Below are positions 3,121-27,131 of a stretch of DNA of 28,263 nt, piece by piece. The notes below the pieces were generated by a model. The model did not search any database and was not told the DNA's origin. It was given only the letters and a program-made list of their open reading frames with translations. Within the stretch, counting starts at the first letter, position 1, and the number at the start of each line of letters is the position of its first letter. The position numbers and the translations under genes are program-made. The stretch comes from a virus: IMG/VR virus record IMGVR_UViG_3300044522_000575, positions 1 to 28,263 of that record; one strand, written 5' to 3'.

Positions 3121-4548
3121 GTGAAGTCTCCTATTCTCGGCCAGTCGTACGTCGCCCGCAGCGTCAACGCTGCCGACAACCGGATGGTCAATCTTTTCCC
3201 CGAGGCCACCCCAGAAGCTGGCAAGACCGCTGGTTTCTTAAACCGTGCGCCCGGCCTGCGTTTGCTCGCTACTGTCGGCACAGGGCCTGTGCGTGGCTTG
3301 TGGGCGCATGGCGGCGAAGCCTACGTCGTGTCTGGCAGCCAGTTCTACAAGCTAAGCTCGGCATACGGCGCGACCTTGATAGGCTCGGTCAGCGGCACTG
3401 GGCCGGTGAGCATGGCCGATAACGGCACCCAGCTGTTTATTGCCTGCAACCCGGACGGATACGTCTACGAGATGGTCACCGGCGCGTTTGGGCAGATTAC
3501 CGACGTAGATTTTGCTGGCGCGCAGGCGGTGAGCTACATCGACGGCTATTTTGTTTTCAATCAGCCTAATTCACAGGTTTTTTGGATAACGTCTATCCTT
3601 GGCACATCCATTGACCCGCTGGACTTCGCCAGCGCAGAAGGCTCCCCCGACGGGTTGGTCACGCTGATCGTAGACCATCGCGAGTTGTGGCTTTTCGGCA
3701 CTGATTCGGTTGAAGTTTGGTACAACTCCGGCAACGCGACCTTTCCGTTTGAGCGCATCCAAGGCGCGTTCAACGAGATTGGCTGTGAGGCGCCCTACTC
3801 GGTTGCCAAGCTCGACAACGGCATTTTCTGGCTAGGCTCTGACACCCGCGGCAACGGCATCGTTTACCGGGCGAACGGGTACACCGGCCAGCGGGTAAGC
3901 ACGCACGCGGTCGAGTTTGCCATCCAAGGCTACGCCGACCTGTCGGACGCAGTGGCCTACACCTACCAGCAAGAAGGACACGCCTTCTACGTCCTGATAT
4001 TCCCTAGCGCGGGCGCGACATGGGTCTATGACGTGGCGACCAACTCGTGGACTGAGCGCGCCGGGTTCGCGGCTGGCGCATTCACCCGCCACCGCTCCAA
4101 CTGCCAGATGAACTTCAACGGCGAGATTGTCGTGGGCGATTTTGAGAACGGCAACGTTTACGCCTTCGACCTAGATGTGTACGCCGACAATGGCGCCGAG
4201 CAGAAGTGGCTGCGCTCATGGCGTGCGCTACCTAGCGACACCAATGACCTAAAACGCACCGCTCAACACAGCCTCCAGCTGGACTGCGAGACTGGCGTAG
4301 GCCTAGCGACCGGCCAAGGCAGCGATCCGCAAGTGATGCTCCGCTGGTCAGATGATGGCGGCCACACATGGTCGAGCGAGCACTGGCGCTCGATGGGGCC
4401 TATTGGCCAGTTCGGGCGGCGCACTATCTGGCGCCGGCTTGGGATGACGACCAAGATTCGTGACAGGGTGTACGAAATTTCCGGCACCGACCCAGTCAAG
4501 GTATCGATTGTCGGCGTCGAACTGAGCGTTACCGCGACCAATGGCTAA
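3121..4548 (+). CDS. P22 gp10-like packaged-DNA stabilisation / tail hub protein
   Basis: A 475-residue protein, close to the 472 residues of P22 gp10, which binds the connector below gp4 and helps plug the portal after DNA packaging. Diagnostic stretches are the N-terminus (SPILGQSYVARSVNAADNR, VNLFPE), RAPGLRLLATVG at ~43-54, and repeated beta-propeller-like strands such as LWLFGTDSVEVWYNSG (~189-204). The start is GTG, placed directly after the stop of the preceding gene with no gap, so translation is probably coupled. No frameshift or truncation is seen. The family call is by eye and is supported by the gp4-gp10 order. Confidence 0.85.
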   Translation: MKSPILGQSYVARSVNAADNRMVNLFPEATPEAGKTAGFLNRAPGLRLLATVGTGPVRGLWAHGGEAYVVSGSQFYKLSSAYGATLIGSVSGTGPVSMADNGTQLFIACNPDGYVYEMVTGAFGQITDVDFAGAQAVSYIDGYFVFNQPNSQVFWITSILGTSIDPLDFASAEGSPDGLVTLIVDHRELWLFGTDSVEVWYNSGNATFPFERIQGAFNEIGCEAPYSVAKLDNGIFWLGSDTRGNGIVYRANGYTGQRVSTHAVEFAIQGYADLSDAVAYTYQQEGHAFYVLIFPSAGATWVYDVATNSWTERAGFAAGAFTRHRSNCQMNFNGEIVVGDFENGNVYAFDLDVYADNGAEQKWLRSWRALPSDTNDLKRTAQHSLQLDCETGVGLATGQGSDPQVMLRWSDDGGHTWSSEHWRSMGPIGQFGRRTIWRRLGMTTKIRDRVYEISGTDPVKVSIVGVELSVTATNG

Positions 4549-5383: not shown

Positions 5384-7333
5384 ATGACAGCATTTATCAG
5401 CCCGCCGCCTCGGTTGCAGTTCTTCACCAACGCCGGCGTCCCTATGGCCGGCGGGTTCCTGTACACCTACGCTGCCGGCACCACGACGCCTTTAGTTACC
5501 TATACCGACTCAACTGGCTTAGTTGCCAACACCAATCCGGTGATCTTGGATTCGCGTGGCGAGGCTAGCATTTGGCTGGGCGGAGTTGGCTACAAGTTCA
5601 AGCTAGCAACGCCTGCTAATGTGGACATCTGGACGCAGGACAATATTGCGCCCGGCTCTAGCGCCTACATGAGTTACGTCCCGGCCGGCGCGGGTGCTGT
5701 TACCACGAGCGTGCAAGCTAAGCTGCGGGAGTCCGTTTCGGTTAAAGACTTTGGGGCTGTTGGTGATGGGGTGACTGACGATTTTGCCGCCATCACGTTG
5801 GCGTTGGCCGCGTCGTCTGGGCGCGAGCTGTTTTTCCCAGCCGGCACTTACAAAATAAATTTTGCCGGATCAAACGCTCTGACCCCATTGGTCAATTGCA
5901 GCTTGGTAGGTGAAAACAAGCACAGCACAATTTTAGACTTTGTGCCGTCGTCTACTTCGTTTCGAAATTTGTTTAACATTGTAAACAATGGTTTTAGTAT
6001 TTTAAACTTTACCGTGACAGCAACTGCCATTGCCGCATCGGCATTTGCATTTTTTAAAGTAGCTGCAACTTCAACAATTATTGATAATTGCATTATCAAC
6101 GGCGGCGCAACAAACGTCGGCGCGGTTATTTCTCGCAATGCTTATGGAATTCTGTTTCCAGAAGCTGCAAATGCAACCGACCTCTACGTTAAAAATACTA
6201 AACTAACGCGCTTGACGTACCCGTTATTGAAAAACAATGCCGCCACATCAACGCAGACAAATGTCAATTTTATTAACAATTGGTTTACCTTCAATTATTA
6301 CAACGATTTAGGGTTTAATACTCCAAATGGCGTAATCACAAACGTTTTGATTGATGGGAACAAGTTTGACAATAATCAAACCATTGATTCGGTTGGGCCA
6401 ACGCAAGCATTAGGCATTGCACTTGCAAGCGTTTCCAATTTTGTTATCACCAATAATATTTTGCAAAACAAATACACTGACGCTATCCACATTGAAGAAA
6501 ATTCTTACAACGGAACAATTTCAAACAATGTTATTCATGTAGACGGCAACGGCATAGAGTTCAACGGCAACAACATAGGCGGGCCAACAACAGCCCCGTC
6601 CTACATTACAGTTTGCAACAATTCCATTGTAAAAACCGGCACGCTTAGAGAAACAAATAAGTGGGGAATACGGCTCATTTATAACGCATCGCTTCACCCG
6701 CCTGCTAACAATATTGTAATCAGTTCGAACGTGGTAAATAAGTTTGAATGGGGCTTGTACTTGGTGGCGTTGCAAGATACGTCCGTGGTGATTGACGGAA
6801 ATCTATTCAGTGATCACGAAATTGGAATTGTATCGACTGATGCATCCGTCACGCTTTCTAATAACGTAACCTCTAAATGTGACGCTGGCGTTGGTTCTTA
6901 TTTTTTGGTTGTCCCCGGAACTTTGACTGCAAACGAGCATACGTTTATTGATTGCGTCGCCGTGGCTACAAACTCAAGCCTGCCAGTTACATTGCTTAAC
7001 CCAAAGTTTATTTTTGCAATTTTTGACCATCCGGGCACGGGCGCGGTTTACAAAAATATTCTTGTGGCCGGCGCTAACGACCGGGCACACGGGTTTTTTG
7101 AGGAAATTGAAAACTGCTCTGGGGTTTCTGATTATTCAAGGCGGCGCGACTTAATTTTGTGGGACGGCGCAGCTTTTACGGTTACCAATCAAATGAGCAT
7201 TCAACCGGGGGCAGTTACGCTCACCTCGGTTCGCAACGCCGGCATTTTGGCCGTAAATGTAAATTCAGCGGTTGCAAAAACAAGCATGCGACTGCAAGTA
7301 AAGTTAAACGGCATGGCAGTGGTGGCAATCTAA
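5384..7333 (+). CDS. Tailspike / receptor-binding protein 2 (beta-helix)
   Basis: A 649-residue tailspike. Residues 1-~95 (ISPPPRLQFFTNAGVPMAGG, LYTYAAGTTTPL, DSRGEASIWLGG) match the widespread N-terminal head-binding domain of podovirus spikes. At ~101-137 it carries nearly the same linker as tailspike 1 (VPAGAGAV, LRESVSVKDFGAVGDG, TDDFAAI). A long right-handed beta-helix follows, rich in NN, ISNN and ITNN turns up to ~residue 520. Unlike tailspike 1 it lacks the GTFTPT/ITGLP C-terminal module. The beta-helix coding region (about 5860-7320) is AT-rich compared with the N-terminal domain, suggesting domain exchange. The start ATG has AGGT 7 bases upstream. It may have glycan depolymerase activity; no catalytic residues can be assigned by eye. 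Confidence 0.87.
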   Translation: MTAFISPPPRLQFFTNAGVPMAGGFLYTYAAGTTTPLVTYTDSTGLVANTNPVILDSRGEASIWLGGVGYKFKLATPANVDIWTQDNIAPGSSAYMSYVPAGAGAVTTSVQAKLRESVSVKDFGAVGDGVTDDFAAITLALAASSGRELFFPAGTYKINFAGSNALTPLVNCSLVGENKHSTILDFVPSSTSFRNLFNIVNNGFSILNFTVTATAIAASAFAFFKVAATSTIIDNCIINGGATNVGAVISRNAYGILFPEAANATDLYVKNTKLTRLTYPLLKNNAATSTQTNVNFINNWFTFNYYNDLGFNTPNGVITNVLIDGNKFDNNQTIDSVGPTQALGIALASVSNFVITNNILQNKYTDAIHIEENSYNGTISNNVIHVDGNGIEFNGNNIGGPTTAPSYITVCNNSIVKTGTLRETNKWGIRLIYNASLHPPANNIVISSNVVNKFEWGLYLVALQDTSVVIDGNLFSDHEIGIVSTDASVTLSNNVTSKCDAGVGSYFLVVPGTLTANEHTFIDCVAVATNSSLPVTLLNPKFIFAIFDHPGTGAVYKNILVAGANDRAHGFFEEIENCSGVSDYSRRRDLILWDGAAFTVTNQMSIQPGAVTLTSVRNAGILAVNVNSAVAKTSMRLQVKLNGMAVVAI

Positions 7334-14608: not shown

Positions 14609-14766
14609 TTGGCAACCTCCTGTTGCGGGCGTCCGCGCCCGTCGTACTTGCCTTTCTCGGGCGCGTTGGCCGGGTGCAGCACCCACTTTTCGCCGAGAAT
14701 CCCTAGCGCGTTTTGCAGCTTTTCCTGCATGGTCGGCGCTTGCCAGACAACTTCCTCGTTATCCAT
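14605..14766 (-). CDS. Small unknown protein between helicase and VRR-NUC
   Basis: A 53-residue protein (MDNEEVVWQAPTMQEKLQ start; ends GRGRPQQEVAK). It overlaps the end of the helicase gene by 8 bases and the VRR-NUC start as GTGA; its last codons hold that gene's AGGAGG. No family recognised. Reality is supported by the overlap chain rather than by similarity. Confidence 0.5.
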   Translation of the reverse strand: MDNEEVVWQAPTMQEKLQNALGILGEKWVLHPANAPEKGKYDGRGRPQQEVAK

Positions 14767-16369
14767 ATGCTACCTCTTTTATCCAATCTCGCGCAATAAT
14801 GCGATGAAATTTCCCGTCACGCTTGTAATTTATCACACTTGGCGCTGCACAAGCATTCAGCTTCTCAACTATCTCATCCAGACTTAGCTGCCCAAGCCCC
14901 TTGCAGTCAGCCCCGCAGCGAGCCGCGATGGATGCCAGCTCGCGCATGGCCTTGTCGCCGGCATAGCCTAGGTGCGTGATCGCGAAATACTCAGTGATGG
15001 CCTGCTCGCTTAGGCCACCGTAATAGCTCACCTTGAGCATGTACTTCCCGCTGGCTTGCGAGACATGCACCCGCCACATCCAGTCTGTGACGCGCATCTC
15101 GCTATAGCCTTCGAGGTTCAGAATGTCCTCGTTGTGAAGTTCCAATTTTTTTATTTTTGGCGGCGGGAACTGATACCCGCATGCCGGGCACTCCCGCGCT
15201 GATATGCCCACCAGTTCGTGACACTCCGGGCACCCCTTGACCGGCTTCTCGCCTTTGCCGGCTTTTTTGACCCCTGGCACAATCTCAGTAATCGGCCCGT
15301 GCTGGGCTACGACCCCCGCAAAGTCCATGACTAGGCAATGGTCGGTGTGGGATTTAATCCGCATTCCGCGACCGGCCATCTGGACGTACAAGCCCTCGCT
15401 CATCGTGGGCCGCAACATGGCAATGAGGTCAATGTCGGGGTAATCGAACCCGGTGGTGAGCACGTTTGCGTTGGTCAGTGCTCGGATCTTGCCGGCCTTA
15501 AAATCCTCCAATATCTGCTCACGCTCATCCTTGGGCGTAGTCCCTACCACACAGGCCGCGGCTATCCCTCGGCGTATCAGCACGTCCCGAATGTGCGTGG
15601 CATGTTGGACCCCGGCGCAGAAAAACAGCCAAGCCTTGCGCTCGCCAGCGCGGGCGATGACTTCATCTACTACGCCGACGTTCTGGTCTTCCGTGTCTAC
15701 CGCTGCCTGTAGCTCACTCTCAATGTACTCGCCACCGCGCTGATGCACGCCTTCCACGCTCAACTCGGTATCGGTTTGCTTGCTACGCAATGGCGCTAGG
15801 TAGCCGCCCTCGATCAATTCTTTCAGTTTCACCGGTTCGATTAGCGCATCAAATAACCCGCCGTTCTGGGTGATGTAGCCGTGGCCTAAGCGGTATGGCG
15901 TAGCCGTTAGGCCGATGACCCGCAGCTTAGGGTTAATCTCCAGCAGTTCAGCCAGCAGAGTGCGGTAGCCGCCCTCGTCCTTGGTCGAGATCAGGTGGCA
16001 CTCGTCAATAATTGCGATGTCAATAAAGCCAATGAGGTCAGACTTTGTGCGAAGGCTTTGGATCCCACCAAAGGTAATGGCCTCGCCCAAGTGCTTCATT
16101 CCCAGCCCCGCCGAGTAGATGCCCAGCGGTGCATCGGGCCAGTGCAGGCGCAGCTTCTCAGCGTTCTGGGCGATTAGCTCCTTCACGTGCGTCAGCATTA
16201 GCACTTTAGTCTCTGGCCAGTTCTGGATTGCCTCCTTGCACAGGGCCGCGATGATGTGGCTTTTGCCTGACCCCGTGGGCAGGACTAGGCACGGGTTGCC
16301 GGTTTTGTTTTTCTCGAACCAACTGTAGAGCTGGTCGAGGGTGCGTTGCTGGTAGTCACGGAGTTTCAT
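14759..16369 (-). CDS. SF2 DECH-box helicase, RadD-like
   Basis: A 536-residue superfamily 2 helicase. Motifs in order: Q-motif-like LRDYQQR (3-9), Walker A PTGSGKS (31-37), Walker B IIDECH (120-125), TATP motif III (155-158), and motif VI QMAGRGMR (330-337). A zinc-ribbon follows: C380-x2-C383 and C394-x2-C397. DECH plus a C-terminal four-Cys ribbon resembles E. coli RadD (YejH), linked to DNA repair and recombination; the length is close to RadD (586). It probably unwinds or remodels replication or recombination intermediates. It overlaps the methyltransferase end by 14 bases and starts immediately after the stop of the alternative ORF in that gene. Confidence 0.88.
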   Translation of the reverse strand: MKLRDYQQRTLDQLYSWFEKNKTGNPCLVLPTGSGKSHIIAALCKEAIQNWPETKVLMLTHVKELIAQNAEKLRLHWPDAPLGIYSAGLGMKHLGEAITFGGIQSLRTKSDLIGFIDIAIIDECHLISTKDEGGYRTLLAELLEINPKLRVIGLTATPYRLGHGYITQNGGLFDALIEPVKLKELIEGGYLAPLRSKQTDTELSVEGVHQRGGEYIESELQAAVDTEDQNVGVVDEVIARAGERKAWLFFCAGVQHATHIRDVLIRRGIAAACVVGTTPKDEREQILEDFKAGKIRALTNANVLTTGFDYPDIDLIAMLRPTMSEGLYVQMAGRGMRIKSHTDHCLVMDFAGVVAQHGPITEIVPGVKKAGKGEKPVKGCPECHELVGISARECPACGYQFPPPKIKKLELHNEDILNLEGYSEMRVTDWMWRVHVSQASGKYMLKVSYYGGLSEQAITEYFAITHLGYAGDKAMRELASIAARCGADCKGLGQLSLDEIVEKLNACAAPSVINYKRDGKFHRIIARDWIKEVAYG

Positions 16370-17303
16370 TTAATAAACCCCATGCTGTTGCAGCCACTGC
16401 TGGTACTTGTCCATTTCCAATGGCCTTAAGTCTGTCCACCCGAGCGGCCACCCCATGAGCCACTCGACCCACGCCGGGTTCAGCGGCATCCGCTGGATCT
16501 GTGGCCCACCAATTGCCACTGCATTTAAAGTTGGCGTGTTCAACGTAAACTCCGCCGGGTAACCCCCTTCCTTTGAATTGTGCGCTGTCGGAGTTGGCCA
16601 ATTCTTCACCATTGTCGCTAATCCGTCCCCACTGGTTGCGCTCAACCCCTTGCGGTTGTAGTTTCCGCACATTGTCGGCGTTGGAAGCTTCCTGCTCTTT
16701 ACCTGTTTTGGGCGCGTTACAGCCCCCCGTATGCGAGGGTGATTGTTTAGCCCAATCTGGCCATAGTTGGCCGTTGCTGGAATTTTCGACCCCTCTGCTG
16801 CCGTGGGCGTTGGCCACAATCCAAATTCTGTCTCTTTTATGCGGTGCACCAACGTCTGCTGCCGATACGACACCCCATTTTGCATCAAACCCCAGCGCGG
16901 CCAGGTCCCCGAGAACTCTGCTAAGTCCTCGAGTAGTGAGCATTGGGGAATTTTCCACATAAACGTATTGGGGTCGAACTTCGCCAATAATTCGCGCCAT
17001 GTGGTGCCACATGCCTGATTTTTTGCCGTCAATTCCGGCTCTATTTCCCGCTGAACTGATGTCTTGGCACGGAAACCCGCCAGATACCACATCAACAATT
17101 CCTCGCCAAGGGTGGCCGTCAAAGGTTTGAACGTCATCCCAAATCGGGAAAGGCGGGAGAATTTGGTCATTTTGTCGGGCGGCAAGTACGCAAGCTGCGT
17201 AGGGTTCCCACTCAACAGCGCAGATGGTTCGCCATCCGAGCAAATGTCCTCCGAGTATGCCGCCACCAGCGCCTGCGAATAAAGCCAGCTCATTTTTTTT
17301 CAT
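16356..17303 (-). CDS. DNA cytosine-C5 methyltransferase
   Basis: A 315-residue C5-cytosine methyltransferase. Motif I LFAGAGGG (8-15), motif II AVEWEPYA (29-36), motif IV GGFPCQDIS (75-83) with catalytic Cys79, motif VI VENSP (116-120), motif VIII KRDRIWIVA (156-164), and motif X RLKAIGNGQVP (291-301) are all present, so the enzyme looks intact. The target-recognition segment (~165-280) is low-complexity with recurring ANAH/NADN/ANSD units. It probably methylates phage DNA to evade host restriction; no partner endonuclease is visible. The start overlaps the upstream nuclease stop as ATGA. Codons 2-4 contain a run of eight A, and an ORF of 307 codons occupies nearly the whole gene in another frame of the same strand. 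Confidence 0.93.
   Translation of the reverse strand: MKKNELALFAGAGGGILGGHLLGWRTICAVEWEPYAACVLAARQNDQILPPFPIWDDVQTFDGHPWRGIVDVVSGGFPCQDISSAGNRAGIDGKKSGMWHHMARIIGEVRPQYVYVENSPMLTTRGLSRVLGDLAALGFDAKWGVVSAADVGAPHKRDRIWIVANAHGSRGVENSSNGQLWPDWAKQSPSHTGGCNAPKTGKEQEASNADNVRKLQPQGVERNQWGRISDNGEELANSDSAQFKGRGLPGGVYVEHANFKCSGNWWATDPADAAEPGVGRVAHGVAARVDRLKAIGNGQVPAVAATAWGLLNETP
16370..17293 (-). CDS. Full-length alternative-frame ORF inside the methyltransferase
   Basis: A 307-codon same-strand ORF in the +1 frame, running from 10 bases after the methyltransferase start to 14 bases before its end. It starts MSWLYSQALV and contains LWPTPTA (159-165), LPTPTM (203-208), NWPTPTA (231-237) and LNPAWVEWLMGWPLGWTD (271-288). 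I recall similar MSWLYSQALV / LWPTPTA / WVEWLMG sequences annotated as phage hypothetical proteins, but cannot verify this. Its ATG uses the last A of the A8 tract and its TAA abuts the helicase ATG. GGGA lies about 9 bases before the ATG. It could be a true overprinted gene, a frameshift product, or a frame kept open by the methyltransferase's own conserved sequence. No function assigned. Confidence 0.4.
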   Translation of the reverse strand: MSWLYSQALVAAYSEDICSDGEPSALLSGNPTQLAYLPPDKMTKFSRLSRFGMTFKPLTATLGEELLMWYLAGFRAKTSVQREIEPELTAKNQACGTTWRELLAKFDPNTFMWKIPQCSLLEDLAEFSGTWPRWGLMQNGVSYRQQTLVHRIKETEFGLWPTPTAAEGSKIPATANYGQIGLNNHPRIRGAVTRPKQVKSRKLPTPTMCGNYNRKGLSATSGDGLATMVKNWPTPTAHNSKEGGYPAEFTLNTPTLNAVAIGGPQIQRMPLNPAWVEWLMGWPLGWTDLRPLEMDKYQQWLQQHGVY

Positions 17304-18331
17304 CCCACTATCCGTCCGTCAAACTCTTGACGCAACGCAAGCATTGCCTCACTCGGGTGCGCGCAAGCCTGCGGGTTTGCCACCAGTTCTTTCGAACCGT
17401 AGACGCCATCACCGGCCTCGCCATTCCGCACGGCCACCCCGTCAATTAGGTAGGTGGCTTCGTCATCTGTCCCTGACGCCATCATCCACGGCACCATGTC
17501 GGGGTGCAGCACATGGACTTCACAGCCGATTTTCTGAAACTCCACCGGTATTTCGTTGTCCTCATGCCGGCCACATGTCAAAGCACCATTGTTTGCAGGG
17601 GTTGAATGCGCGCAGGTGCGGCAGTTGACCTGCTGAGTGGGTTTCTTGGCGTGGCACATGTCGAACGCGGGGCACCACTTGCACTGATACCAGCTAGGGT
17701 CGGTGCTGACGCCTGGCGGTATCCTATCCGCACGGACAATTCGATTGGCTTTGTCCAACAAATCGTTAGCCGCTGCCGCATCAAAGCGCACCCGCTCTGT
17801 GTAAACGCGGTCGTCATCCTTGCAGACGGCGTAGTACAAGGCGCGGTCAATGCCAGTGCCTAGCATGTAAAGCTGGCACTGCGCCCAGTGCATTGACTTG
17901 CTCTTGAGCAAACCGTCTTTCACTAGGGCGTCAAAGCTCTTTTTGCTGTGCGTCTTGATTTCGAGCACATGCTGTTTGCGCTCGTGCCCCGGCAGGCCGG
18001 ACGTAATCACGCCGTCGAGACTGCCGCCAACATGTGGCGCCAACTCAACCCGGCGCTGGTTATGCTGCCCGCCGTGGCTGATGGTGCAGCCAGCGGCCAG
18101 CAAGTCAGCAATGACGGTCGCCTCCTCATTCTGGCCGCGCCGGAACAGGCGCAGCAGGCGTCCTGAGTGTTTCTCGATAACCGCCCACCGGAACGATAGC
18201 CATAGCCACCGCTCGCAGTGATGGCCAATGACTGAGCACCCGAGGTGCTGGCGCGGGCCGTCTTGCTTCGCCTCGTGGGCACGGTCGATTGCGGCGACTA
18301 TGCCGGCGTTCGGATCTTCGATAGCGGTCAT
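17300..18331 (-). CDS. Cas4/AddB-like iron-sulfur PD-(D/E)XK exonuclease
   Basis: A 343-residue RecB-type nuclease. Catalytic pattern: D106 in GSLDG, E124-I-K126 in LEIKTH, then Q151 in the AQCQLYMLG helix. Cysteines fit the 4Fe-4S arrangement of Cas4 and AddB: one near the N-terminus (C39 in CERWLWL) and C217-x2-C220-x5-C226 in the C-terminal half. A further Cys group follows (C237, C240, C253). It probably resects DNA ends to give single strands for the Sak4/DUF669 proteins encoded in the same operon. ATG 18331 overlaps the upstream stop as ATGA and is preferred over a start 15 bases earlier. Confidence 0.85.
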   Translation of the reverse strand: MTAIEDPNAGIVAAIDRAHEAKQDGPRQHLGCSVIGHHCERWLWLSFRWAVIEKHSGRLLRLFRRGQNEEATVIADLLAAGCTISHGGQHNQRRVELAPHVGGSLDGVITSGLPGHERKQHVLEIKTHSKKSFDALVKDGLLKSKSMHWAQCQLYMLGTGIDRALYYAVCKDDDRVYTERVRFDAAAANDLLDKANRIVRADRIPPGVSTDPSWYQCKWCPAFDMCHAKKPTQQVNCRTCAHSTPANNGALTCGRHEDNEIPVEFQKIGCEVHVLHPDMVPWMMASGTDDEATYLIDGVAVRNGEAGDGVYGSKELVANPQACAHPSEAMLALRQEFDGRIVG

Positions 18332-18549
18332 CGCGGCAACTTCCACGCCGCTTCAAAACCAGCCTTGTAACCGCTGCGGTAGTTGTCAGCGGCGGCATTC
18401 TCGCGCTCAACCTGCGCCGCATTCGCGGCCTTGCGCCGCTCGAATTCTTCGTCAAGGCGCACCGATTCTGCGCGTCGGATTTCGTCTTGCAACGCCCATA
18501 GTTCGCGTTGGCGAAAACGTAACAGGGCTTCTTTAATTTCTGGATGCAT
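18328..18549 (-). CDS. Small charged helical protein
   Basis: A 73-residue Arg/Glu-rich helical protein (MHPEIKEALLRFRQREL start, then EFERRKAANAAQVEREN) with an aromatic C-terminus (YRSGYKAGFEAAWKLPR). It overlaps the Cas4-like nuclease by ATGA. Its leader contains a UUCG-loop hairpin and the sequence ACTGAGACAGC before the ATG; the Shine-Dalgarno is weak. No family recognised. Confidence 0.65.
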   Translation of the reverse strand: MHPEIKEALLRFRQRELWALQDEIRRAESVRLDEEFERRKAANAAQVERENAAADNYRSGYKAGFEAAWKLPR

Positions 18550-25406: not shown

Positions 25407-27131
25407 ATGCCAACTAACAATCTATCGCCAAAAGCCAAAAACAAACTAGGCATCGCCAGTTCGATTCCGCCAAACATGGCCGAACGGTTTGGCGCTGCGG
25501 TGTCGCCATATCTGCAAGGCGCGCAAGCGTTGTTTCCGCCAACCAACCCATACGGGCAAGTGGTGAGTAATTTCTTGCTAGGCCAAGCCCCACAAGCCGC
25601 CCAACAGATGGCGGCTGGCTATCCTAATGTGCTGTTCAACACCAGCAACCCGCTAGGTGGCAATCGGATTGTCAATCCGGTGGCGCTGGACATGGCGTTT
25701 GCTTTGCCAGTGGCCACGGGTCTTAAGGGCGCGGGAGCACTGGCTAAAAGCGCCCCATTGGTTGGGGGAATTACCGCATGGCACGGCTCGCCGCACTTAT
25801 TCCCGCCTACCCCCCTAAATGACCTCGGCGAGTTTAATGCTGCCAAGATAGGGAGTGGGGAAGGCGCGCAGGCGTATGGGCATGGGCACTATACGGCGGA
25901 GGCGCGGGGGACGGGGGAGGGGTACAGAAGACAACTATCTGGAACTGTTCAACGTCCTAATGTTGAGTACAAGGGGAAAAATTATTTAAGTGGGCATATT
26001 AGTGGAATTGAAGGGCAGGCCGTTTCAACAATCGCAGATGCTTTGGCAAAAGATATACCAATTGCAGATGCAATTAAACAAGCAAGGGAAATAGCTAAAG
26101 CAAGATTTGCGAGGGATGTAAAACAAGTTCGCTCTGCGGGAATGGGGGTAGATGAGTTTTTGCAATCTCCCGAAGAGTACAAAGCACTTCTCAAGCAAAT
26201 AAAAGCTACAGATCCGTCTAGCCTTAAACGTATTGGCGATCCTATAGATTCGGGCCACCTCTACAAAGTAGACATCCCCGACGAGCAGATTGCTCGCATG
26301 CTGGACTGGGATAAGACGTTGAGTGAGCAGAGCAAGCATGTGCGCGATGCGCTTGCAAAATCAAAAAACAAGCAAGTTAGCGCCATGCTTGAATATGCAC
26401 AAACCCCATATTCTGCCGATATTGGCGGCGAAGCTAAAACTATGGGGGAAGCATTCCGATTGCTTAACCTAAATTTACACGGCAGATCAGCGGCAGATTC
26501 AGCGAAAGCGTCTGCATTGCTTGCTAAACAAGGCATCCCCGGCGTTCGCTACCTAGACGCTGGTTCACGCGGGGCCGGAGAAGGAACCTCCAACTTCGTC
26601 GTCTTCCCCGGCAACGAAAACATGATGACCATCTTGGAGCGCAACGGGCAGGCTAGGAGCGTGCCAACCCAAGCAAATACACTTAACTCACGCCAAATAC
26701 GCGAGCTAATTGATAAAAATTCTCCAAACGAATCGTTAGACTTTGACGCGTTGCGCTCGGCTATTGGCGGCAATTCTTACGAACTTACAAATTACGATAT
26801 TAGCAAACTACACGCAGGCGATTTATCGGTAGACGCCAGCAAAGCCATGCCGTCAAAAGGGGCTATCGTAATTGGCAAGGATGGGGAGATTATTGATGGT
26901 AGGCATCGTGCAGCATTAGCCAAGAGCGCGGGAAATACCCACATACAAGCCTATACCCCTGTGGCAGCATCCCCCGAGTCCCAAGCCATCGCCCGCTACC
27001 GCGAGGTCAAAGGGCCTAAGTCAGTGGTTAGGATGGAAGCAGCACTTCGCACAGCTGGCGTGCCACTGCCTAAGAACGAGCCGGTGGCGTACATTCAGCG
27101 TCTTGTCGATCAAGCGCATCGGAGGAATTAG
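25407..27131 (+). CDS. Polyvalent-type protein: ART domain plus ParB-like domain
   Basis: A 574-residue protein. Residues ~1-120 are an Ala/Pro/Gly-rich leader. From ~122 to ~410 it resembles the ADP-ribosyltransferase domain of polyvalent proteins: TAWHGSPHLF (123-132) with H126, AKIGSGEGAQAYGHGHYTAE (146-165) with Y162, GHLYKVDIPDEQIARMLDWD (283-302), GVRYLDAGSRG (379-389) and TSNFVVFPGNE (394-404). Residues ~425-530 resemble a ParB-like nuclease fold with GEIIDGRHRAALAKSAG (493-509). It might modify a host protein with ADP-ribose from NAD and be injected with DNA, as proposed for polyvalent proteins; this is inference. The segment 25930-26240 is AT-rich. It lies between the small HTH gene and the terminase, and its 3' end holds the latter's GGAGG. 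Confidence 0.7.
   Translation: MPTNNLSPKAKNKLGIASSIPPNMAERFGAAVSPYLQGAQALFPPTNPYGQVVSNFLLGQAPQAAQQMAAGYPNVLFNTSNPLGGNRIVNPVALDMAFALPVATGLKGAGALAKSAPLVGGITAWHGSPHLFPPTPLNDLGEFNAAKIGSGEGAQAYGHGHYTAEARGTGEGYRRQLSGTVQRPNVEYKGKNYLSGHISGIEGQAVSTIADALAKDIPIADAIKQAREIAKARFARDVKQVRSAGMGVDEFLQSPEEYKALLKQIKATDPSSLKRIGDPIDSGHLYKVDIPDEQIARMLDWDKTLSEQSKHVRDALAKSKNKQVSAMLEYAQTPYSADIGGEAKTMGEAFRLLNLNLHGRSAADSAKASALLAKQGIPGVRYLDAGSRGAGEGTSNFVVFPGNENMMTILERNGQARSVPTQANTLNSRQIRELIDKNSPNESLDFDALRSAIGGNSYELTNYDISKLHAGDLSVDASKAMPSKGAIVIGKDGEIIDGRHRAALAKSAGNTHIQAYTPVAASPESQAIARYREVKGPKSVVRMEAALRTAGVPLPKNEPVAYIQRLVDQAHRRN

Follow-up and report, generated by a model that had tools for sequence, protein, structure and literature searches.

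The closest described systems are C5 cytosine-DNA methyltransferases that consist of two chains. M.EcoHK31I, which was reportedly first described by Lee et al. in 1995, is encoded by two genes, a small one inside a large one in another frame, the small gene giving rise to a beta polypeptide of 176 aa, and in enzymes of this type both polypeptides are needed for activity. M.EcoHK31I is a two-polypeptide methyltransferase for YGGCCR, in which motif IX is contributed by the smaller polypeptide, whereas the predicted recognition domain is found on the larger one along with motifs I-VIII and X (PMC3404938). M.AquI has two subunits as well, with the motifs split into I-VIII and IX-X (PMC3404938).

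In the window (the whole stretch of 28,263 nt that was analysed), two ORFs, here termed alpha and beta, show a more extreme form of such an arrangement, with 97% of alpha being double-coded by beta (Table 1). Very probably, this one DNA segment codes for both subunits of a split C5 cytosine-DNA methyltransferase of the M.EcoHK31I kind, whose assembly and activity we infer. Both frames are open, conserved and under selection, and the beta start codon is preserved.

Comparison with known split and single-chain enzymes

Compared by description, the pair shares with M.EcoHK31I the nesting of the second gene in another frame, which is found in the window and in 160 loci selected by alpha, and the placement of motifs I-VIII and X on the large chain and of motif IX on a second polypeptide. 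The latter would correspond to LNPAWVEWLMGWPLGW in beta, the likeness being to the segment that precedes motif X in single-chain enzymes. Unlike its counterpart in M.EcoHK31I, the window beta covers almost all of alpha and starts 10 nt after the alpha start. The recognition domain, which is predicted to belong to the large subunit in M.EcoHK31I (PMC3404938), here appears to reside in beta as judged from sequence, whereas alpha residues 169-296 contain no predicted folded domain. M.AquI-type enzymes resemble alpha/beta in that catalytic motifs and recognition/motif IX region are on two chains, but a split of exactly this type is ruled out for the window pair, as motif X (RVDRLKAIGNGQVP) is on alpha and M.AquI has both IX and X on the second subunit. 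The split architecture as such has a precedent from 1995, of which the near-total overlap is most likely an extended form. A search of literature outside subscription journals gave no paper on phage cytosine methyltransferases in overlapping frames, and no description of the near-total overlap or of its ubiquity was found there.

Among phages, several further arrangements can be compared. In Drake94 (gp76/gp75), Firecracker (gp6/gp5) and Andrew (gp43/gp44), two genes overlap partially in the +1 frame and the second chain is homologous to beta; these actinophage pairs differ in having motif X on the second chain, whereas the window pair overlaps almost completely and keeps motif X in alpha. Both genes are called DNA methylase in these three phages, and their M.AquI-like split is related to the nested form. 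The Paenibacillus phage pair Bloom_56/Bloom_57 is a nested +1 ORF pair of the alpha/beta architecture, and both are annotated as DNA cytosine methyltransferase, but its beta is shorter and begins about 200 nt into alpha, whereas the window beta reaches the alpha start. Shauna1 gp67 and Geralt gp64 of Mycobacterium phages, in contrast, combine motifs I-VIII, PTPxARD-rich repeats, EWMMGWPAGW at the motif IX position and motif X in one chain. All modules of these single-chain genes are in one frame, and their +1 frame is closed by 10-13 stops.

Layout of the gene pair and its surroundings

The 307-codon second frame had already been noticed in the first-pass annotation, and its position as well as the details given for it are borne out, with both ORFs on the minus strand: the sequence MSWLYSQALV, three PTPT motifs (beta 160-165, 203-207 and 232-237) and LNPAWVEWLMGWPLGW all occur in beta, the two ATGs are spaced as claimed (in most relatives the distance is 4 nt), and the beta stop (16372-16370) adjoins the helicase ATG at 16369. 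The motif IX-like segment of beta shares its DNA with alpha codons 274-292, which form the lead-in to motif X and partially overlap it.

Table 1. Features of the alpha/beta locus and adjacent genes (positions in the window)
Feature	Position	Strand	Length	Remarks
alpha ORF (P0001)	16356..17303	minus	315 aa	putative catalytic subunit of a C5 cytosine-DNA methyltransferase
beta ORF (P0002)	16370..17293	minus	307 aa	+1 frame inside alpha; putative target-recognition/motif IX subunit
beta start codon ATG	17291..17293	minus		made of alpha Asn(AAT) + Glu(GAG)
alpha motif IV GGFPCQDIS, catalytic Cys79	17055..17081	minus		G75, G76, F77, P78 and C79 invariant; Q80 and D81 nearly so
alpha motif X region RVDRLKAIGNGQVP	16401..16442	minus		in most alpha homologues; predicted helices (AF2) 288-295, 300-312
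beta motif IX-like segment LNPAWVEWLMGWPLGWTDL (beta 271-289)	16427..16483	minus		nearly invariant among 96 beta proteins
beta first PTPT motif WPTPTA (beta 160-165)	16799..16816	minus		G158, T162 and P163 invariant or nearly so
beta third PTPT motif WPTPTA (beta 232-237)	16583..16600	minus		T234 and P235 nearly invariant
superfamily 2 helicase, downstream	14759..16369	minus		PF04851/PF00271; ATG abuts beta stop
upstream gene, weak Cas4-like (PD-(D/E)XK) match	17300..18346	minus		PDLC01447, E 2.3e-5

The locus is set in a phage replication/recombination region with the helicase, the Cas4-like gene, DUF669 and AAA_24, and a Prim-Pol primase lies in the same region on the opposite strand. The TGA of the Cas4-like gene overlaps the alpha ATG (ATGA), and this gene uses the same reading frame as beta. 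No restriction endonuclease was recognised beside alpha/beta, and an orphan methyltransferase that protects the phage's own DNA would be the natural guess. Elsewhere in the window, two separate large genes (60-2096 and 5384-7333) have N-terminal matches that are tail-spike-like, which suggests two receptor-binding or depolymerase proteins, and a 574-aa ORF at 25407-27131 has neither a Pfam nor a PADLOC match.

Alpha resembles a catalytic chain

Alpha has the characteristics of a C5-methyltransferase of family PF00145, as the profile matches residues 7-172 (E 1.7e-31; 110.3 bits, gathering cut-off 22) and both the PCQ and the ENV motif are present, the latter in the window's own version ENS; phrog_363 matches as well (E 1.8e-66). 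GGFPC and E117-N118 are invariant among alpha homologues. Up to about residue 168 the AF2 model is mostly confident, and some 166 residues of it match the structures of M.HaeIII/M.HhaI (Foldseek E 6.6e-14). Residues 169-216 and 218-296 have a pLDDT below 50, and no domain is modelled at 169-296 except for the beginning of a C-terminal helix.

A complete single-chain enzyme would possess a recognition domain and motif IX, and in alpha the profile match stops before the region where these would be expected and the model shows no order there. The extent of the Pfam match and the predicted disorder thus point to a large catalytic domain without target-recognition domain or motif IX, and alpha holds motifs I-VIII and X with no predicted folded target-recognition domain. 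It had been stated that the methyltransferase frame has every C5 motif; this is wrong, since motif IX and the target-recognition region appear to sit in the other frame.

Beta is a conserved second gene

Loci were gathered by alpha alignment only (80 viral and 80 bacterial/prophage loci), blind to beta, because a selection on beta had to be avoided. Every one of these loci has a beta-like ORF in the +1 frame. In the viral set, 79 loci keep this frame open along alpha with a full-length beta, and the +2 frame has 7-26 stops. The sole exception (L113, about 1700-2750) has one in-frame stop after MRAGV, and its beta is otherwise normal, with the rest conserved and still terminating in LNPTWVEWLMGWPLGW. 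The beta profile finds a match in exactly the +1 frame in all 80 bacterial/prophage loci, which span Proteobacteria, Verrucomicrobia, Planctomycetes, Bacteroidetes, Cyanobacteria, Firmicutes and others, down to an alpha identity of 28%. Many distant members have a shorter beta of about 180-250 aa that starts some 60-100 codons into alpha.

A control by synonymous codon shuffling, as had been proposed with the initial observation, was carried out with the window alpha: the longest +1 opening had a mean of 111 and a maximum of 283 codons in 10,000 shuffles, none of which matched the observed opening of 309 codons. With the viral alphas shuffled locus by locus, the observed +1 length was reached in 135 of 24,000 trials, and for the +2 frame no excess openness was seen in the same comparison of the 80 viral loci.

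The beta start is particularly well preserved. The alpha Asn codon that supplies the AT of the beta ATG is AAT in 74 of 74 homologues, and AAT makes up 37% of Asn codons elsewhere in alpha. The alpha-frame triplet 4 nt upstream of the beta ATG is ATG, GTG or TTG in most homologues but not a start codon at all in seven, and the beta ATG is kept even where this triplet varies. In four distinct lineages (L009, L018, L071 and L091), M(S/P)WLxSxA(L/M) precedes alpha motif I by 29-41 nt and has nevertheless been conserved, and therefore this N-terminal beta motif is not a by-product of motif I. These features argue for an independent initiation of beta at its own ATG, from which it would be translated as a separate protein.

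Selection in both frames

The synonymous sites of alpha vary little where beta is conserved. Four-fold synonymous divergence between homologues is as low as 0.019-0.025 at alpha codons 274-293, despite 19-30% difference of the alpha amino acids at these codons, and it is here that the +1 frame encodes the beta sequence LNPxWVEWLMGWPLGWTDL. Other dips at alpha codons 114-123, 134-143 and 234-243 (0.18 at the last) coincide with beta's SLLEDL and TWPRWG segments and its third WPTPT, respectively.

In an OLGenie-like count, for which flanking genes read in a pseudo +1 frame served as control, NN/NS was 0.65 (0.52-0.77) in the overlap and 0.94 (0.79-1.09) in the flanking genes, and the NN/NS value is to be read against these controls only, because single-frame genes can give values below 1 owing to their more constrained second codon positions. 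SN/SS was 0.31 (0.27-0.36) in the overlap and 0.67 (0.57-0.83) in the flanking genes, and alpha is also under purifying selection (NN/SN 0.35). Purifying selection thus acts in both frames beyond the level of single-gene controls, and this dN/dS comparison, also proposed at the outset, places selection on beta above that on the pseudo-frames of its neighbours.

What beta may be

To which protein family does the second frame belong? No convincing Pfam family was obtained for beta and 96 relatives, and neither beta nor the single-chain profile retrieved anything convincing from the PDB by sequence. AF2 predicted beta alone with low confidence (pLDDT 57.9, pTM 0.28), and BFVD matches of this model were set aside for that reason. 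Information came from phage proteins. The beta profile matches a profile of single-chain/gp75-type proteins (Shauna1 gp67, Geralt gp64, Polka14 gp75, Drake94 gp75, Firecracker gp5 and Andrew gp44) with a probability of 98.7 and E 1.5e-16; this match covers beta 134-257 and ends short of motif IX. Firecracker gp5, which carries motif X too, aligns to beta 104-306 with motif IX included. Moreover, phrog_1008 matches beta (E 2.4e-28) up to profile position 281 and also matches Shauna1 gp67 residues 245-451 up to position 323, motif X included. In Shauna1 gp67 and Geralt gp64, EWMMGWPAGWVT directly before motif X in the one chain is the counterpart of the beta motif IX segment.

These alignments show homology between the second half of beta and the recognition/motif IX region of phage methyltransferases already known, and the equivalence to motif IX rests on the position in single-chain proteins and on pairwise alignment. 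Shauna1/Geralt and alpha/beta thus differ in a complementary way: a recognition/motif IX module in the methyltransferase frame goes with a closed +1 frame, and an alpha devoid of the module goes with an open +1 frame that encodes it.

Alternative explanations

How else could the open second frame be explained? It had been left undecided whether beta is a widely conserved overprinted gene or a mis-annotated shadow, that is, a +1 frame that is open merely through the composition and the conserved motifs of alpha. Part of beta indeed overlies alpha motifs that are strongly conserved, and openings of the mean length given above remain in the +1 frame after synonymous shuffling. Homologues with ordinary synonymous variation and frequent stops would be expected of such a shadow, and on examination neither was found. 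The shuffles and the +2 control speak otherwise, as do the synonymous constraint and the two-frame selection relative to flanking genes, the invariant AAT together with the displaced MSWL motif, and the many stops in the +1 frame of single-chain relatives, so that a shadow ORF is extremely unlikely. The conservation of start and frame, the suppression of synonymous change, the selection in two frames beyond that of the flanks and the displaced N-terminal motif clearly favour a real, conserved second gene. The +1 frame might also be reached by ribosomal or transcriptional slippage from alpha, resulting in an alpha-beta fusion or an MKK-beta variant with no independent initiation. An A8 run after the alpha ATG of the window (17293-17303, ATGAAAAAAAATGAGC) could permit such a shift, and in L010 and L022 rearrangements join an alpha N-terminal part to a beta C-terminal part in one frame. 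The run is, however, not conserved in relatives, most of which have (A/G/T)TGAATGAG with beta's own ATG, and slippage at A8 was therefore rejected as a general mechanism; conservation moreover extends over the whole of beta as far as its N-terminus, and a late frameshift would have no need of this. We regard slippage as highly improbable. In the rearranged copies (L010 at about 3485-3838, and L022), the alpha part is followed by the beta frame as far as motif IX, and motif X is in another frame; these copies may be genuine chimeras or may result from errors in assembly or sequencing.

A real and selected beta could still be an unrelated phage protein, such as a regulator or an anti-restriction factor, that was overprinted by chance. 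The missing Pfam match and the poor fold predicted for the solitary chain would agree with this, and the association of alpha with beta is deduced from sequences and models. Single-chain and gp75-type methyltransferases have a recognition/motif IX part homologous to beta 134-307, alpha lacks exactly the part that beta resembles, and the two co-occur in every sampled locus; these findings render an unrelated protein unlikely. Of the original suggestion that the segment encodes a modification enzyme and a second phage protein, the real second protein thus stands, but it is most likely the other subunit of the same enzyme, given that alpha is without the motif IX and recognition region that beta would supply.

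Proposed split enzyme and its implications

In the split-enzyme mechanism that we prefer, the alpha frame would give the large catalytic domain with motifs I-VIII including the PCQ nucleophile, an unstructured linker and motif X, and the +1 frame would give beta, from its own conserved ATG, with motif IX and a variable region that is target-recognition-like. Assembly of the two chains is expected; alpha would then bind AdoMet and carry out catalysis, and beta would touch the target bases and close the active site. Such a complex may methylate the phage DNA with a specificity set by beta, probably for self-protection.

It is rather likely, though less so than for the window pair itself, that a large subfamily in phages and prophages spanning phyla consists of obligate two-subunit C5-methyltransferases with catalytic and specificity chains in two frames that are up to 97% double-coded. 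If this is true, specificity can change only in ways that the catalytic chain tolerates as well. The locus offers statistically strong, near-complete dual coding on the same strand in dsDNA phages, and the products would be subunits of one enzyme. Many single “DNA cytosine methyltransferase” entries would then be half-enzymes with a partner gene hidden in the +1 frame, with consequences for REBASE-type annotation, for failed recombinant expression of codon-optimised orphan methyltransferases, where one frame is lost when the other is recoded, and for tests of the constraints that gene overlap places on the evolution of DNA specificity.

Phages and prophages very commonly carry this arrangement, and the second protein is routinely missed or mislabelled. 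Independent annotators have labelled both frames in Bloom and both partly overlapping genes in several actinophages; for nested pairs, annotations often list only one gene, and sometimes the wrong one. In Acidovorax phage Alfacinha3, gp46 (L138, 1409-2575) is annotated as “cytosine-specific methyltransferase” and represents the beta frame alone, and the catalytic alpha frame, with VALHSIELCAGVGML...GFPCQDIS...GNGVVP, is present in the DNA as an unannotated ORF.
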